From positions 1 through 35,517 of the IMG/VR virus record IMGVR_UViG_3300046167_000229: a stretch of 35,517 nucleotides of DNA, one strand, 5' to 3'. Under the pieces are notes generated by a model. The model was not told the origin of the DNA. It saw only the letters and a list, made by a program, of their open reading frames with translations, and ran no database searches. The translations under genes were made by a program, and so were the position numbers. Shown in pieces: positions 2,156-12,864 of this stretch. The first letter of the stretch is position 1. The number at the start of each line of letters is the position of its first letter. The DNA is from a virus.

Positions 2156-4009
2156 TTACCCTAAAGACCTATTGAAATCAATAGTTCTATCCAATTCTTC
2201 TGCGTCTTTGATGTCTTTGTTCACAACGAATGCTCTTAATGGTTTTTCTTGTTGACCTGTAATAGATTGTGCTAGTTGCGATTCAGGGGACGCACCTACT
2301 ACATTGAAGTCTGGAGCTTCCACACTAGCACCTGGTCCTCCACCAACACTTCCGCCTATACTTCCTCCTGATAATATAGATTTTGCTCTATTGGCTGCTG
2401 CCAATACTGCTGCTATCTGTGAAGCATAAAATAGTGGAAATGCTAATGCGGAAACAGGTGCAGCTTCTTTGGCTTGTTGTTGTGCAAGAGTCAATCCTTG
2501 TGAAAATCCTATAGCTGTGTTTGCAGCAATCTCTAATAATGCAAAAGTTTTAGATGCTTTTGAGTTTTCCTTCATTAATCCAGATATACTACCTAATGAG
2601 TCTGCATAATGACCAAACATTTCCATCCTCATTGCATACCCCTGCCTGTCTAGCCTCTCTTGCTCTTGTGCTAATAATTTACTATAAAAAAGATTAACCT
2701 CATATTTAGCTACAGCTAATTCAGTTTCTAGAAGTCCCAATTCTTTTAAGGCATTGAGTCTATTTAGATTCTGTTGCTGTTCTAATTCTATAGCTTGTAT
2801 GGTGTTTTCATTAGACATAGCATCAATCTCTAAATCTCTATTAAAGAAGTACTCTCTAATTTGACCCATTTCTACTAAGCCTCTTATCTTTTTATCAAAA
2901 TTACCTATTTCTAGGGCATCATAGTCTGATTTTTCCTTACGATCTTTCTTCCCTTTTTTCTCCGCATAATCCTCTAGATTTATTCTTTTTACTAAAAGAT
3001 TTATTTGCTCTTGTATTTTTATGTTTTCGGTATCTAAACCATCTACGATATCCGCTACAGCATCTAAATTGAATTTGTTAAATTCTTCCTTTCCTTCTAC
3101 TATAGAGTCTCTAAACAATTTATTAATTGCAACCTGCTTCTCTGCTTCAGTTAATGCTTCATTTTGCCTTATTTCCTCTCTTTTAGCCCAAAGTTCTCTA
3201 GCCTGATCTAAAGTTTTTCCGCCTTCTTTTAGTTTATCTATCGCTTCTAATTCTTTATCTATAGCTTCTCCTGCAAGTTTTTCTATCTTTGCTTGAGCTG
3301 CTTTAGCAAAAGCCAACTTAACAATTTCTTGTCTATATTTATTTATAGCAGCAGAAGCTGCATTTGTTTTGTTTTTTATATCCTCAAAACTTACGCTAGA
3401 GTCATTTAATTGTTTTATGAAGTCAGGGAATTCTTTTTTAAGCCTTTTTATTGCTAATTCTTGCTGTTCTTGAGAAGTGTTTGCGTCTTGTAATTTTCTT
3501 ATATAAACCTCAAAGTCTCCTGCAGTTTTAGACACAAAATCACCTAACGATTTGGTTGACTTCTTTAGTTTTTGAGCCTCCATATCCTGCCTCTCAATCA
3601 AAGTGATTACAGTTTGAAAAATAAGTATAAGACCCAAAGGACCCATTAAAGCACCAAGAAGAGCTCTAAAACCATTAACAACACCCCCCGTCGTAGTTAT
3701 TAATGTAATCATAAGGGTAGATAGCTGAGACAAGTTGTTTGCCATACCTCTTATACCATAGTTAGAGTCAGATATAGTACGACCTAATTCCACAAGCGTA
3801 GCTCCTGCAAGACCAGTCTTATCAATCATTGGGTTAAGACCATCCTTAGTAACCCCACCCATTGCAGCTTGTTGAGCTTTTAAATCAGCCGTAAGTTTGT
3901 TCACTGCAGCGTCAGCCTTTACAAAACTCTTGGTTAATCCCTCTATCTTTACTTTGCCCTTGTCGTTTATCTCAACGACATAAGTCAGTTTATTTGTTTT
4001 ATCAGCCAT
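2156..4009 (-). CDS. tail tape measure protein
   Basis: A 617-residue protein with the layout of a short tape measure. It has a polar N-terminus with 'VEINDKGKVKIEGL' and hydrophobic segments at about 95-140 (including 'GFRALLGALMGPLGLILIF'). A long Lys/Glu/Gln-rich helical region follows at about 145-440. Then comes a second hydrophobic, Ala-rich part (about 490-560) with 'FALLEIAANTAIGFSQGL', followed by a Gly-rich stretch. It sets tail length and occupies the tube lumen; by the usual 1.5 angstrom per residue it suggests a tail near 90 nm. It overlaps the upstream 47-codon ORF by 8 bases and is followed by the head genes. Confidence 0.9.
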   Translation of the reverse strand: MADKTNKLTYVVEINDKGKVKIEGLTKSFVKADAAVNKLTADLKAQQAAMGGVTKDGLNPMIDKTGLAGATLVELGRTISDSNYGIRGMANNLSQLSTLMITLITTTGGVVNGFRALLGALMGPLGLILIFQTVITLIERQDMEAQKLKKSTKSLGDFVSKTAGDFEVYIRKLQDANTSQEQQELAIKRLKKEFPDFIKQLNDSSVSFEDIKNKTNAASAAINKYRQEIVKLAFAKAAQAKIEKLAGEAIDKELEAIDKLKEGGKTLDQARELWAKREEIRQNEALTEAEKQVAINKLFRDSIVEGKEEFNKFNLDAVADIVDGLDTENIKIQEQINLLVKRINLEDYAEKKGKKDRKEKSDYDALEIGNFDKKIRGLVEMGQIREYFFNRDLEIDAMSNENTIQAIELEQQQNLNRLNALKELGLLETELAVAKYEVNLFYSKLLAQEQERLDRQGYAMRMEMFGHYADSLGSISGLMKENSKASKTFALLEIAANTAIGFSQGLTLAQQQAKEAAPVSALAFPLFYASQIAAVLAAANRAKSILSGGSIGGSVGGGPGASVEAPDFNVVGASPESQLAQSITGQQEKPLRAFVVNKDIKDAEELDRTIDFNRSLG

Positions 4010-7601: not shown

Positions 7602-9239
7602 TTATATATTAAATCCGTATCCTCTTAGTGCTGTAATAATCAAGTCGTGATAATAACTTGAGGTTCCTGTTTGAAGGACTGGTTGAACAACAGAAACTTC
7701 TGACCTGTCAGAAAGACCTTTAGAACCATCAAATCCTTCATCTCCACTAAATATGTTATTAATGAAGTAAGTTTCGTAGTTGGGATAATTTCTCGCATTA
7801 AATAATGTCAAGAAGTAATCTCCATAACTTTTAGACTCTAGAAATGTTCTAAAATTTGCTAAATCTGAATCATAAAGAGGATTTGCTGTAGTATAATCAC
7901 TAACTCTATTTATAAAGAATTCGTCTCTTTGTCCGTCTTGATAATTGTCCAATTCTCCAGAAACTTCATTTGTAAAGTATAAAAATATTTGTTTGCTAGA
8001 ATCTGCATTTCTTAATGGAGTGCTAGATAATTTTAAGAAATCCTCTTTATTAATTGAAATATAATTATTATCTAATGCGTGGTCTTGAGATTTTACTATC
8101 TTAACTCTTTTATTATATTCCACCACATCATTATTATAATATTCCAATAATGTATTTTTTAGTTCATTATCTGCCATAATTAATAACTGGTCAAGAATAG
8201 TCCCCATAGAGCCAGAACTATCAAAAATTATTGTTATTTCTGTTTCACCATCAATTACTTGTTCAGGAACGCCTAAATCAAAACTCTGACCACCCTCTTC
8301 AATAGTTCCAGTACCACTTGTTACAGACACAGTGTCTTCTTGAGCAGAGACTAAATCCGTTTCTCCTTCTTCTAGTGAAACTGTTTGAGTGACACCATTT
8401 ACATCAGTATAACTAAAATCAGTAGTACCCCCTGCTGTAGTACTTTTTACAGTATAAAACTTAGTTATTGTTTCCTCTACATCTGGGCAATTAAGTCTAA
8501 AGCTATAACTATCATTAGGAATTAAAGGTTCTGCGGTTAACGTAACTTGCGTTGGTGTGGCAGACGTTTTATTTATGATTAATGTAGTCGGTTGCTTCTT
8601 ATTAGTTGGTGATGACGTATTATCTGGTGCTGGTATTGGGTCAGTAAGTCCAAAACTAGAATCACCTATAAAACCAGTTGTCTCTGTATTTCCATCCCAA
8701 GTTATATCAAATTTAACAGGTGTATTTTGTTCTCCTCCACCATCTAAGAACTCAATCTCTACATCACCTATCTTGTCTCCTACACCTACTAAATTATAAG
8801 TTTTAGTACCAAGAAAAGCCCCTTCATTTATTACATCCCCACAATTAACATCTAAACCTGTATTTGTAGTTTGCTCAGGTATCTCTTGCCAGTTAATAGT
8901 GATTTGTGCAACCGCTACATCCCCATCATCATCTGTTACTACAACATTAAATATTTTAGATTCAGCTTCTGGACTAGTTACATCTATAGATACTGAAGTT
9001 TGTGGCGAAGAAGTGCCACCCCATAAATAGGATACGATAGTCCCATCACTATCCGTAGCTACCGCAGTTAACGTAACTGTTTCTTTAACATAAGGATTCT
9101 CGTTACTAGCAGTAATTGTTACTGTAGGTGGTATATTGGTAGGTGGGTCTGGAATCTCAGGTGTTTCAGGAATTGTAGGTTCCGTAGGATTCGCCTCAAT
9201 ATAATATGGACTCCTAGTATTTATTCTAACATCACTCAT
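7602..9239 (-). CDS. tail protein with PKD and vWA (MIDAS) domains
   Basis: A 545-residue protein. After a Pro-rich N-terminus (about 15-38), residues 38-118 form a PKD/Ig-like domain (PPTVTITAS..., 'TAVATDSDGTIVSYLW', 'NVVVTDDDGDVAVAQITI'). A further beta-rich region follows. From about residue 330 there is a von Willebrand A-like domain with a DxSxS metal-site motif, 'TIIFDSSGSMGTILDQLL'. Together these suggest a surface-exposed, metal-dependent adhesion module on the tail. Its place between neck and distal-tail genes supports a virion role. Receptor binding is inferred. Confidence 0.75.
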   Translation of the reverse strand: MSDVRINTRSPYYIEANPTEPTIPETPEIPDPPTNIPPTVTITASNENPYVKETVTLTAVATDSDGTIVSYLWGGTSSPQTSVSIDVTSPEAESKIFNVVVTDDDGDVAVAQITINWQEIPEQTTNTGLDVNCGDVINEGAFLGTKTYNLVGVGDKIGDVEIEFLDGGGEQNTPVKFDITWDGNTETTGFIGDSSFGLTDPIPAPDNTSSPTNKKQPTTLIINKTSATPTQVTLTAEPLIPNDSYSFRLNCPDVEETITKFYTVKSTTAGGTTDFSYTDVNGVTQTVSLEEGETDLVSAQEDTVSVTSGTGTIEEGGQSFDLGVPEQVIDGETEITIIFDSSGSMGTILDQLLIMADNELKNTLLEYYNNDVVEYNKRVKIVKSQDHALDNNYISINKEDFLKLSSTPLRNADSSKQIFLYFTNEVSGELDNYQDGQRDEFFINRVSDYTTANPLYDSDLANFRTFLESKSYGDYFLTLFNARNYPNYETYFINNIFSGDEGFDGSKGLSDRSEVSVVQPVLQTGTSSYYHDLIITALRGYGFNI

Positions 9240-9283: not shown

Positions 9284-9751
9284 TTAACTCTTCTTTGCAG
9301 TGGGTGTAGCTGCATCTATCTCTTCTTGTATTTCTCTTCTGTAAGCATCTACTAGGTCCATTGTCATTCTAGCCTCAAATTTATCAATAACAACATCTAT
9401 AAATCTGTGCGGTCTAATACCCTTTTGTGCAATTGATCTACCTATTAAAAAAGACAATTGTTTAAGGGTGGGTGTTTTACCACTCCTTAATGTTTTAGGT
9501 TTAATACCTTTTCTTTCAATCCAATCGTTTATCTTTTCTATCGGAGGAAATTTACCTGCACTGCGACCTCGATCTACATTAAGACCGTATTCATTCATAG
9601 ATATTACAAAACCATCTCTCTTTGGTATCTTTCTACCAACAATACTTTTCTCTAAATTACTCCCAGGTTTATTTAATTCCTTCTTTAATTCAGAGACTAT
9701 TATCTTCTTGTAGTTTTCAAGAACCTTTGCTGTATACTTCTTCTTGGCCAT
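9284..9751 (-). CDS. tail completion / neck protein (HK97 gp10-like)
   Basis: A 155-residue protein. A Lys-rich N-terminal helix precedes 'VDRGRSAGKFPPIEKINDWI' at about residues 60-79 and 'LSFLIGRSIAQKGIRPHRF' at about 99-117. This pattern is typical of phage HK97 gp10-like or minor tail-completion proteins. Its ATG overlaps the TAA of the upstream gene (TAATG). It probably acts at the head-tail joint. Confidence 0.7.
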   Translation of the reverse strand: MAKKKYTAKVLENYKKIIVSELKKELNKPGSNLEKSIVGRKIPKRDGFVISMNEYGLNVDRGRSAGKFPPIEKINDWIERKGIKPKTLRSGKTPTLKQLSFLIGRSIAQKGIRPHRFIDVVIDKFEARMTMDLVDAYRREIQEEIDAATPTAKKS

Positions 9752-10224
9752 TATTCTTCAGGGGGGCAAATAGTATGTTCGTTATTAGCCATCTCTATAT
9801 TGATTGTGGCAGCCCACCCGGCTAATTGATTCTCAAAGTTGTCTATAAACGGTGAAGCTGTTATATCAGTGGTTAACTGTAAGTTGTCTTCAAAGAGCTC
9901 CCCCCTCCTTAATTCTTGCTGTATATCATTTACAACTTGTAGTTGAGTGTTTAAGATATCTTGTAAGTTATCATTACCGTAGATGAGGTCTTCATCTGTC
10001 AATTCATTAGTTTTATCTACGACATCAAGACAGAATATCTGTATGGTAGCGGTTATGATATGTGGTTGGAATACGACATCCCCCATTGATATATGGGATA
10101 ATGGATAGATAGTTGTTTTGTCCAGATCAACCTCCAATATGTCCCCGAAGGTGACTGTATTAGTAACTCCATTCTCCTTTAGTTTGTCGTTTAGCTTTTG
10201 TATTACGGTGTATACTTGTCTCAT
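9751..10224 (-). CDS. tail terminator/neck-like protein
   Basis: A 157-residue acidic protein with 'MRQVYTVIQKLNDKLKENG' at the start and a central 'YPLSHISMGDV' followed by a beta-rich stretch 'HIITATIQIFCLDVVD'. It has the size and layout of proteins encoded between the tail chaperone and the gp10-like gene in Bacteroidetes phages. Its ATG at 10224 overlaps the TGA that ends the -1 frame of the chaperone gene. A tail-terminator role is inferred from position. Confidence 0.55.
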   Translation of the reverse strand: MRQVYTVIQKLNDKLKENGVTNTVTFGDILEVDLDKTTIYPLSHISMGDVVFQPHIITATIQIFCLDVVDKTNELTDEDLIYGNDNLQDILNTQLQVVNDIQQELRRGELFEDNLQLTTDITASPFIDNFENQLAGWAATINIEMANNEHTICPPEE

Positions 10225-10993
10225 TTACTTTTTTGTTTTATCATTTTAGCCTCTAACTCGTTTTTCTCCTTTTCAAATTCTAGCCAGGTTAAACATTCGG
10301 AAGCCGATAGTTTTGCAACTTCTTTAAATTTTGTGACATCTCCTCTAGCGATTGCGTATATTGACTGATACCACCCCCACTTTGCTCCAAATCCTTTGTT
10401 AGTTGTTTGTCCGTCTTCAACTTCTGCGTCAAAGAGTCCAGTAAATAACTCGACAAAACGTTCCCTAAACGATAAAAAAAAACAACTGCACCTAGAGCTA
10501 CATTTACCGGAGCATCTTTCATTACCTCAGCATACTTATCTGAACCTTCATATTCCTCTATCAAATACAAATCCCCTTTACGGAATGTTATTGGTCTATA
10601 TAGCACCGCCATTGCCTTATGTATCTCTTGCCAATCACCAATATAATTATCTAAATCTATAAACTCACCTAAACTAATATCATCTAACTTAGGGATGAAT
10701 CCAAACGTCACACTATCCCCTTTTGGGTCTGTTAATGTAAAGTCTCTCTGTAATGGAGTATCCTCCTTAAATATCTCTACAATGTGATTTATGATAAATG
10801 AAAACTCTGCTAGAGGTAATTTATAAGCCTCCTTCATTGTGACCCCACAGAATATCTCTAATACCTTTAGATTGATAAACTCTGTATCTTCAGCATCCTC
10901 ATTCCCCTCCATAACCTTAAGGTACTTCTGATATTGCTGTAGTGTGATAGCGGACAGTTCTTGTGGTACTTCTAAAGTAAACTTTTGACTCAT
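10221..10993 (-). CDS. tail assembly chaperone, long (GT-like) product by predicted -1 frameshift
   Basis: The same start as the short product, with a -1 slip in the T9 run (codons GTT GTT TTT TTT TAT; heptamer T TTT TTT at 10475-10481). Reading then continues TTA TCG TTT AGG ... to TGA at 10221-10223. This gives 173 zero-frame codons plus 84 residues, about 257 in total. The -1 extension reads like a real T domain: 'FRERFVELFTGLFDAEVEDG', 'WGWYQSIYAIARGDVTKFKE', 'LTWLEFEKEKNELEAK'. Its stop overlaps the next gene's ATG exactly (ATGA), as at most junctions here. Lambda G/GT works the same way. A homopolymer sequencing error is the main alternative. Confidence 0.72.
10289..10993 (-). CDS. tail assembly chaperone, short (G-like) product
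   Basis: A 234-residue zero-frame protein. ATG 10993 (MSQKFTLEVPQEL...) is preferred to an in-frame GTG seven codons upstream. It has features of the Bacteroidetes-phage tail chaperone: 'LQQYQKYLKVMEG', 'FGFIPKLDDISLGEFIDLD' near the middle, 'AMAVLYRPITF', then 'ALGAVVFF'. After a T9 run (10474-10482 on the plus strand as A9) the zero frame continues for 61 residues, ending '...SGGGISQYTQSLEEMSQ...' at 10289. It is the first gene of the tail operon. A longer -1 frame product is listed separately. Confidence 0.75.
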   Translation of the reverse strand: MSQKFTLEVPQELSAITLQQYQKYLKVMEGNEDAEDTEFINLKVLEIFCGVTMKEAYKLPLAEFSFIINHIVEIFKEDTPLQRDFTLTDPKGDSVTFGFIPKLDDISLGEFIDLDNYIGDWQEIHKAMAVLYRPITFRKGDLYLIEEYEGSDKYAEVMKDAPVNVALGAVVFFYRLGNVLSSYLLDSLTQKLKTDKQLTKDLEQSGGGISQYTQSLEEMSQNLKKLQNYRLPNV

Positions 10994-11080
10994 ACCTATA
11001 TAACCTACATACACTTGTTTTGTACTAGAATAGAAAATAAAACACTTTGTAAATATTCAGTTATATCTATAGATAATCAA

Positions 11081-11104
11081 TAGGGGCTCCTACAGAGACC
11101 CCTA
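11081..11104 (-). promoter_or_regulatory. leader hairpin upstream of tail operon
   Basis: Inverted repeat TAGGGG / CCCCTA with an inner CTC/GAG pairing and a small loop. No T-run follows on either strand, so it is not an intrinsic terminator. It lies about 90 bases upstream of the first tail gene and could be an mRNA leader structure or a protein site. Confidence 0.35.
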
Positions 11105-11202
11105 AACTATTAACTAGACCTTAGATTATCACAACGCTTCTATTCAGGTAAGGGTAAATACATTCTTTTCTCAAATCATTTTTTTATTTCAACCTACTTT
11201 AT

Positions 11203-11210
11203 TATATTTG
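11203..11210 (+). promoter_or_regulatory. plus-strand Bacteroidetes-type -7 box
   Basis: TATATTTG matches the TAnnTTTG -7 element of Bacteroidetes primary-sigma promoters. The -33 position, 21 bases upstream, reads TTT instead of TTG, so that half is weak. It points toward the small-RNA candidate and its terminator. The motif alone is common by chance in AT-rich DNA; the paired terminator raises its value. Confidence 0.45.
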
Positions 11211-11214
11211 TAAT

Positions 11215-11298
11215 AACAATGCTTTGTTTCATTGTTAAATTTAGTTTTTAGTTATTTATCTAAGCCTCCTGTTTTAAGCTCTTTCAGGGGGCTTTTTT
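11215..11298 (+). ncRNA. predicted plus-strand small RNA (~84 nt)
   Basis: Downstream of the -7 box lies a perfect 7-bp inverted repeat AACAATG...CATTGTT (11215-11236). An AU-rich linker follows, then a 10-bp stem AAGCCTCCTG / CAGGGGGCTT ending in a T6 run. This is the only convincing plus-strand intrinsic terminator in a genome whose genes are all on the minus strand, and no plus-strand coding frame is present. The left arm of the terminator contains CCTCCT, an anti-Shine-Dalgarno-like sequence. The transcription start is estimated from the promoter motif. Target and function unknown. Confidence 0.5.
11262..11298 (+). terminator. plus-strand intrinsic terminator
   Basis: AAGCCTCCTG pairs with CAGGGGGCTT (one G-T pair) around a 13-base loop, followed by TTTTTT. 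On the minus strand no T-run follows the stem, so it works only for plus-strand transcripts. Confidence 0.7.
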
Positions 11299-11308
11299 AA
11301 TACCCTTT

Positions 11309-11406
11309 GATTTTTTAAAACTTGATACCTCAACCTACCGCATCTTCATTTTACGTTGATTTTATAAAACTGCATACCTCACTACCCATACGATTCATTT
11401 TACGTC
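11309..11406. repeat. imperfect tandem repeat, 2 x 49 bp
   Basis: Units at 11309-11357 and 11358-11406 abut exactly. Both begin GATTTT(T/A)TAAAACT and share ATACCTCA and TTCATTTTACGT; the middle is diverged. The repeat lies just downstream of the plus-strand terminator. Possible roles are a protein-binding or replication-associated site. Confidence 0.6.
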
Positions 11407-11452
11407 GTTTTAAGGCATTATCTCGGGCTTAGTGGTATTAAAGTATGCTTAG

Positions 11453-11482
11453 GGGGCTGAAAGGCTCTGTAAGGGGCTGAAA
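11453..11482. repeat. paired GGGGCTGAAA boxes, 20-bp spacing
   Basis: GGGGCTGAAA occurs at 11453-11462 and again at 11473-11482, a direct repeat with a two-helical-turn period in the same non-coding region. It may be an operator or part of the repeat-rich control region. Confidence 0.4.
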
Positions 11483-11551
11483 TAAAGGCAATCGGCTACA
11501 CTCTAACAAATATTTATATTCATTCTCAATTAATTACTAAAATAATGATAC

Positions 11552-11586
11552 AAAAAATACCCCCTAAAAAATTAATCTTAGAGGGT
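11552..11586 (-). terminator. intrinsic terminator of accessory cassette
   Basis: Read on the minus strand, ACCCTCTAA pairs along its whole length with TTAGGGGGT (one G-T pair) around a 10-base loop, followed by ATTTTTTG. It lies 34 bases after the stop of the last cassette gene and closes the 13674-11620 transcription unit. Confidence 0.75.
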
Positions 11587-11619
11587 AACCAAACAAAATC
11601 AAATTGAAAAAAAGTATTG

Positions 11620-11754
11620 TTATTCTTTAGTGTTTAGTTTATCGAATTGCTCAAAAGATATTCTTTTACTAAAGCCGTTTTGATTAGATAAAAAGTACTT
11701 GTTATCTAGTTCAACAGTGTAGAAATGCTGTGTAAGTTTCTTGATATATTTCAT
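11620..11754 (-). CDS. small accessory protein
   Basis: A 44-residue protein, MKYIKKLTQHFYTVELDN..., ending LNTKE. Its ATG overlaps the TGA of the upstream gene (ATGA), and the cassette terminator follows. It is charged and aromatic, with no membrane segment. Unrecognised; last gene of the accessory cassette. Confidence 0.6.
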   Translation of the reverse strand: MKYIKKLTQHFYTVELDNKYFLSNQNGFSKRISFEQFDKLNTKE

Positions 11755-12114: not shown

Positions 12115-12864
12115 TTAAAGTTTAATTAATTGCTTTTTCCTTTGTTCTATTGGGGCCGTTACTACAAAGCCGCTTTTATCTTTGCGTGCCTCACCTTTTG
12201 CTCGTAAACCCAAAACAACATTTTTGTTATAGATCATTACCAGGTCACTGGTATCCCCGTCCACAACCTTAAAGCCCCGCCAATATTGTGGGAGCTCCCC
12301 GTTAAAAACAATAGAAACGTTTGAACCGTCGTTTAAAGCTGCAATAGCTGCGGACTCATTATCTTCAGCCCTGGAAAAAGTTAAAAAGTAGTTTGAATGA
12401 TCTTTATATTTTTTGACCTTACCTAGTATTTTAGTATAGTCATAAAAAATTGCGGTCGGTTGTAGGTCCTCAATATCTAAACCGGCATACTTTTTAAGTA
12501 AGTAGATAAAATCCTGGTCACTGGTCCCGTTTAAACGAAAGGCTATTTTTTCACCTTTCTTTTCGGCTTTCGCTGTTTCTCTTACTATTTCCTTTGCAAG
12601 CTGTTTAATAAATAAACTTTTATTATAAATAAAGTAGTTTGTTTTATTAATCCTAGAGCTCTGTACATTTGAGAATTTACCACGTCCGGCTGTGAATAGG
12701 CAAGCCTTTGCACAACCTTTAGAAGCACTGGGACAAATATTTATTTTCTTTGCGTTTTGGTTATATGGTGACAAATAAAGTATAAACGTTTTTAGATTAT
12801 TCTTTTTTGTTTTGGCATTGGTGAAACCTTTACTTAATAGGTTTTTTGGTATAGTATATTTCAT
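12115..12864 (-). CDS. GP88-family phage protein
   Basis: A 249-residue protein matching the Gene 88 (GP88) family known from mycobacteriophages and many other phages. Residues about 43-75 hold the signature 'CPSASKGCAKACLFTAGRG' followed by 'VQSSRINKTNYF', and about 110-118 has 'AFRLNGTSDQDF'. The three conserved cysteines (CxxxxxxCxxxC) suggest metal or cluster binding. The biochemical role of the family is not established. The gene is the longest of a self-contained cassette and its codon use looks like that of its neighbours. Confidence 0.8.
   Translation of the reverse strand: MKYTIPKNLLSKGFTNAKTKKNNLKTFILYLSPYNQNAKKINICPSASKGCAKACLFTAGRGKFSNVQSSRINKTNYFIYNKSLFIKQLAKEIVRETAKAEKKGEKIAFRLNGTSDQDFIYLLKKYAGLDIEDLQPTAIFYDYTKILGKVKKYKDHSNYFLTFSRAEDNESAAIAALNDGSNVSIVFNGELPQYWRGFKVVDGDTSDLVMIYNKNVVLGLRAKGEARKDKSGFVVTAPIEQRKKQLIKL

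Follow-up and report, generated by a model that had tools for sequence, protein, structure and literature searches.

The E/E+E' frameshift of phage P2 is a -1 slip on a T-rich heptamer, T_TTT_TTG, in a tail gene. In lambda and numerous tailed phages it is the tail assembly chaperone gene that undergoes a -1 shift, and up to now the shifts reported for such genes have been attributed to the ribosome (PMC5009743). In lambda, gpG and gpGT come from one gene of the tail operon by a -1 shift; the two products have a common N-terminus, the longer one is extended by a further C-terminal domain, and no strong RNA structure is needed (PMC5009743). The locus described here resembles lambda in these points of layout, and P2 in its T-rich heptamer. 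Another group of systems changes frame on runs of a single base: IS elements use 9A/9T runs, and in many bacterial genomes selection against A/T runs is evident from nine bases (PMC1088944). With the IS elements and with Thermus dnaX (PMC1088944, PMC5009743) our locus shares exactly nine identical A/T bases at the frame junction, the avoidance of such runs elsewhere and the lack of a stimulator.

The gene lies on the minus strand of IMG/VR record IMGVR_UViG_3300046167_000229, whose 35,517 nucleotides we call the window. Its zero frame runs from the ATG at 10993 to the TAA at 10291-10289 and encodes 234 amino acids. It carries a run of nine T, and the features around this run are as follows.

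10289..10993, minus strand: zero-frame open reading frame, G-like short product of 234 aa, kept in the 74 first-round relatives (AlphaFold2 mean pLDDT 80)
10474..10482, minus strand: T9 slip run, GTT TTT TTT TAT (A9 on the plus strand), with nine or ten T at this phase in each of 258 distinct contexts
10475..10481, minus strand: heptamer T_TTT_TTT, in phase within the T9, candidate ribosomal slip site by sequence
10221..10475, minus strand: -1 frame tail with a T-like domain, 84 codons and a TGA stop, carrying a conserved motif and predicted to form three helices
10289..10473, minus strand: dual-coded overlap, in which 61 zero-frame codons and their stop are also read in the -1 frame, with selection on both
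9751..10224, minus strand: next gene, 157 aa, whose start shares ATGA with the -1 stop; relatives keep it immediately downstream
9284..9751, minus strand: possible tail-completion or neck protein, 155 aa (weak PHROG 5 match, E 0.098; gene order conserved)
2156..4009, minus strand: tape-measure-like protein, 617 aa, about 6 kb downstream, from its sequence and a BLASTP match

After TTT TTT the zero frame continues for 61 residues up to its stop. The -1 reading past the slip, TTA TCG TTT AGG and onward, stays open for 84 codons (10475-10224), and its TGA at 10223-10221 forms an ATGA with the ATG of the next gene (10224-10222). A frameshifted product would have 173+84 = 257 amino acids, and some 185 bases belong to both readings. 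Every number in the original prediction, from the A9 at 10474-10482 and the zero-frame end at 10289 to the length of the fusion, was reproduced from the sequence.

The original prediction also called the gene a tail assembly chaperone. Its G/GT-like anatomy, its conserved place in the tail operon and a weak structural match speak for that name, but searches of PHROG, Pfam, NCBIfam and the PDB gave no match that names the protein a chaperone. The structural match, the best named one among predicted viral proteins, is to the 'Tail assembly chaperone protein' of ctCpR1 (E 0.21). Since no family model names it we infer the role, and we believe a G/GT-type tail assembly chaperone is likely and the best reading, because the gene has a two-product anatomy and an operon position before a tape-measure-like gene. 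The order terL, chaperone-like gene, neck-like genes, tape measure is conserved: the chaperone-like gene follows the large terminase region, and the conserved series then ends in the tape-measure-like gene, whose 617-aa product matches the protein annotated as tape measure in Flavobacterium phage 6H (BLASTP E 6e-08). That gene also lies downstream of the chaperone-like gene in the relatives L020, L028 and L038. It belongs to the same operon, but is five genes away. No major tail gene was identified.

Three other observations concern the surroundings of the gene. A 545-aa protein with a PKD-like domain (window 7602-9239) lies between the neck-like and tail genes and is poorly conserved in relatives. 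Near the terminase gene is a Gene product 88 family protein (PF17338; window 12115-12864). The approximately 740 bases directly upstream of the chaperone-like gene (window 11015-11750) have no open reading frame of at least 50 aa.

The scheme we have in mind is this. The gene would belong to a phage whose hosts are marine and Bacteroidetes-like. Translation would mostly yield the 234-aa protein, made up of a 173-residue common N-terminal domain and a 61-residue tail, and a slip on the T run would give a 257-aa GT-like product with a T-like C-terminal domain. By this scheme the common domain would hold the tape-measure protein, the T-like domain would recruit tail-tube subunits, and the short and long forms would be made in unequal amounts.

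The case for recoding comes from relatives. A first scan of IMG/VR gave 74 of them; three more scans searched viral contigs and a fourth genome contigs, and the loci they added share as little as about 26-30% identity with their queries. Pooled and made non-redundant, all scans give 258 distinct contexts; these come from phages in metagenomes, two cultured Nonlabens phages and three bacterial contigs. Every first-scan relative that reaches the site has T9 in the same phase, with the exception of one T10. Among the 258 contexts the run is T9 in 247, T10 in 11 and shorter in none, the site always reads NTT TTT TTT TNN and the offset is always -1. Codon 1 is GTT, CTT, ATT or TTT, codons 2 and 3 are invariably TTT, and codon 4 (Tyr, Trp, Ser, Cys, Phe or Leu) invariably begins with T. 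The deepest scan found the halves offset by -1 and a T run of at least 9 at 80/80 loci, and the 14 loci that a motif filter dropped from the tally likewise have runs of 9 or 10. The cultured phages, P12024S and P12024L, have the same T9 site, phase and -1 tail. A nucleotide-level DNA search of the phage collection gave no match. What marks the G/GT type, a pair of overlapping open reading frames with a conserved frameshift between them at a slippery site, is present throughout.

The -1 frame is conserved from the first codon after the run (LSFR), and its tail carries the conserved motif WGWYQSIYALA...CLTWLEFEKEKNELE. One relative, L063, speaks against the pattern: its -1 frame meets a TAG 33 codons past the slip, about 100 bases after the run and just before WGW; the zero frame is open at this TAG and the close relative L060 is intact, so it is either an error or a natural variant.

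The two halves of the 257-aa fusion were modelled separately. The common N-terminal domain gives a confident model (mostly pLDDT 83-94), as does the -1 tail with its three helices (pLDDT ~93), while the model of the zero-frame tail is helical with confidence that drops from pLDDT 61 to 29. Searching PDB structures with Foldseek and VIA-align gave no informative match, and the VIA-align rows aligned only a long helix. Among predicted viral proteins, 34 entries match the common domain at E <=0.001, nearly all of them unnamed. Some viral proteins in BFVD encoded by a single open reading frame (A0A6J5N0W0, A0A516L611, A0A6J5SVK3 and others) match both the common and the -1 domains by structure, and because of this we think that distant relatives may hold both parts in one frame. 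The homologue with a single uninterrupted frame, which the original prediction named as evidence against itself, appears at none of the approximately 300 loci; those structural matches, and a few distant relatives whose zero frame runs on for just 16-25 residues past the slip, qualify this. A weak structural relative, gp10 of Flavobacterium phage 6H (L241, 10352-10927), has an FFY motif without T9; its -1 frame stops at once at FFY, and a -1 open reading frame opens only past that early stop.

The overlap shows its dual use in the way it diverges. We compared 4-fold sites across 25 disjoint pairs of relatives. Upstream of the run, where coding is single, 312/1156 such sites differ (0.27), and in the -1 frame past the zero-frame stop 15/55 (0.273). 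Within the overlap only 18/381 of the zero-frame 4-fold sites differ (0.047) and 48/511 of those of the -1 frame (0.094). Rates by codon position are flat within the overlap; elsewhere position 3 dominates. Constraint extends from one end of the overlap to the other, easing close to the zero-frame stop, and rates recover past the stop. Resampling, in which the -1 protein was kept, its codons were redrawn synonymously and the open length of the zero frame was scored, points the same way: the zero-frame tail averages 60 codons where 18 are expected, and it is at least 48 codons long in 70/73 lineages. Since these 73 lineages are not fully independent, the combined P is only indicative. Judged by these substitution patterns, selection acts on the overlap in both its readings. 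The frameshift layout is far beyond chance, because 258 contexts have an in-phase T9 or T10 and the zero-frame tail exceeds what synonymous resampling gives.

Several readings would do without a programmed shift or without one of its two products. The long homopolymer invites the suspicion of a sequencing or assembly error in a gene that is truly one continuous frame, and homopolymers are prone to error under some sequencing methods. We reject this, giving it practically no credence, because hundreds of independent assemblies, and two cultured phages as well, show the run at identical length and phase; selection beyond the run also acts on both frames. The -1 domain might instead be a separate gene with its own start. 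The depositors of P12024S and P12024L annotated two genes, gene 39 of P12024S beginning at an internal ATG, and an ATG precedes the conserved motif in 12/231 distinct tails. However, in 157/231 tails, that of the window included, the -1 frame lacks ATG, GTG and TTG alike from the run up to WGWY, an ATG upstream in that frame occurs in only 3/231, and the -1 frame is kept from the first codon after the run. For most members we therefore reject an independent start, the usual internal start being absent, and judging from these codons independent initiation is unlikely, very much so as an account of the family. It could also be argued that only the -1 reading matters and that the zero-frame tail is an accident of constraint on the -1 protein. 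The low confidence with which that tail is predicted would fit, a GDGINQ-like motif in it is largely imposed by the WGWYQS of the -1 frame, and the distant relatives L075, L076/L077, L161 and L243-L245 have zero-frame tails of just 16-25 residues. Yet at sites where a change is silent for the -1 protein and alters only the zero-frame one, divergence is 0.094 against 0.27, and the zero frame is open for much longer than resampling permits. We reject the passive by-product on these two tests and consider it quite improbable. Programmed -1 recoding with a dual-coded overlap, conserved in T run and offset and selected in both readings, is strongly supported by this comparative evidence; leaving aside whether ribosome or polymerase slips, we hold recoding of this chaperone-like gene to be probable.

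The harder argument is over what changes the frame. The original prediction had the ribosome slip by -1 at T_TTT_TTT, and this may well be right; we give it an even chance. The heptamer it relies on is in phase in all 258 contexts, but the exact length of nine T and the lack of an RNA stimulator (mean z ~0 in windows past the site in 42 representatives) leave room for transcriptional slippage, in which RNA polymerase would add one U (or drop two) on the T9 and a fraction of the mRNA would then be translated normally in the -1 frame. We regard this as a serious possibility, short of an even chance. A run of at least nine A or T, which such slippage calls for, is found in 258/258 contexts. The eighth T (10475, the Z position of the heptamer) is T in 255/255 contexts, although a C there would be mostly silent in both frames and comparable sites have C in 32%. 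The heptamer rule leaves the Z position free, though a UUC codon could lower the efficiency of the shift. Elsewhere, in the other open reading frames of the window and related loci, T runs of at least 9 are seen once where 8.2 are expected and A runs of at least 9 seven times where 60.7 are expected. Long A/T runs are avoided there in every codon phase, and of the T7 runs the in-phase heptamers are the least avoided (28 seen, 61 expected). The minimum of nine, the fixed eighth T and this avoidance suit polymerase slippage no less than slippage of the ribosome. Against the polymerase stands the fact that the run always includes the in-phase heptamer T_TTT_TTT. The flanking T1 and T9 are not decisive as proof of transcriptional slippage, for hydrophobic residues could explain them: other buried positions are equally limited to V, L, I and F. 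The shifts of phage tail chaperones have also been ascribed so far to the ribosome (PMC5009743). Both kinds of slippage acting together, or some other route, we consider improbable. The fullest form of the polymerase reading, in which a large marine Bacteroidetes phage family makes two chaperone forms by polymerase slippage on an invariant T9 and the unshifted reading encodes another tail under selection, some 60 residues long, we put forward tentatively.

We believe this locus matters for several reasons. It offers a probable function for an unnamed phage family (phrog_32199 with a -1 extension) that is present in hundreds of marine phages and is annotated in the cultured Nonlabens phages as two separate genes. 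The hundreds of natural variants make it a clean case for asking whether ribosome or polymerase changes the frame, and the overlap is also a case for studying selection on DNA that codes in two frames. The literature searched, which took in few subscription papers, gave no description of the frameshift in this family and no report of transcriptional 9A/9T slippage in phage tail chaperones.

How far the known systems resemble the locus differs from one to the next. Genes 38/39 and 40/41 of P12024S and P12024L (phrog_32199) are homologous, down to the T9, its phase and the -1 tail, but their zero-frame tail has only 25 residues and they were deposited as two unrelated hypothetical genes. Transcriptional slippage on 9A/9T is known from IS elements and cellular genes, unlike the phage tail gene here. 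In the E/E+E' frameshift of P2 the second codon is UUG rather than UUU, the run is not T9 and no homology was found. Lambda G/GT has no detectable sequence relationship to our gene either, slipping at G_GGA_AAG where our gene has T9, and here the tape-measure-like gene is five genes away. The G frame of lambda stops a few codons past the slip, and the overlap of 61 codons here is much longer. A -1 frameshift in a tail gene is well known; a long overlap selected in both frames, together with so rigid a T9, is less usual.
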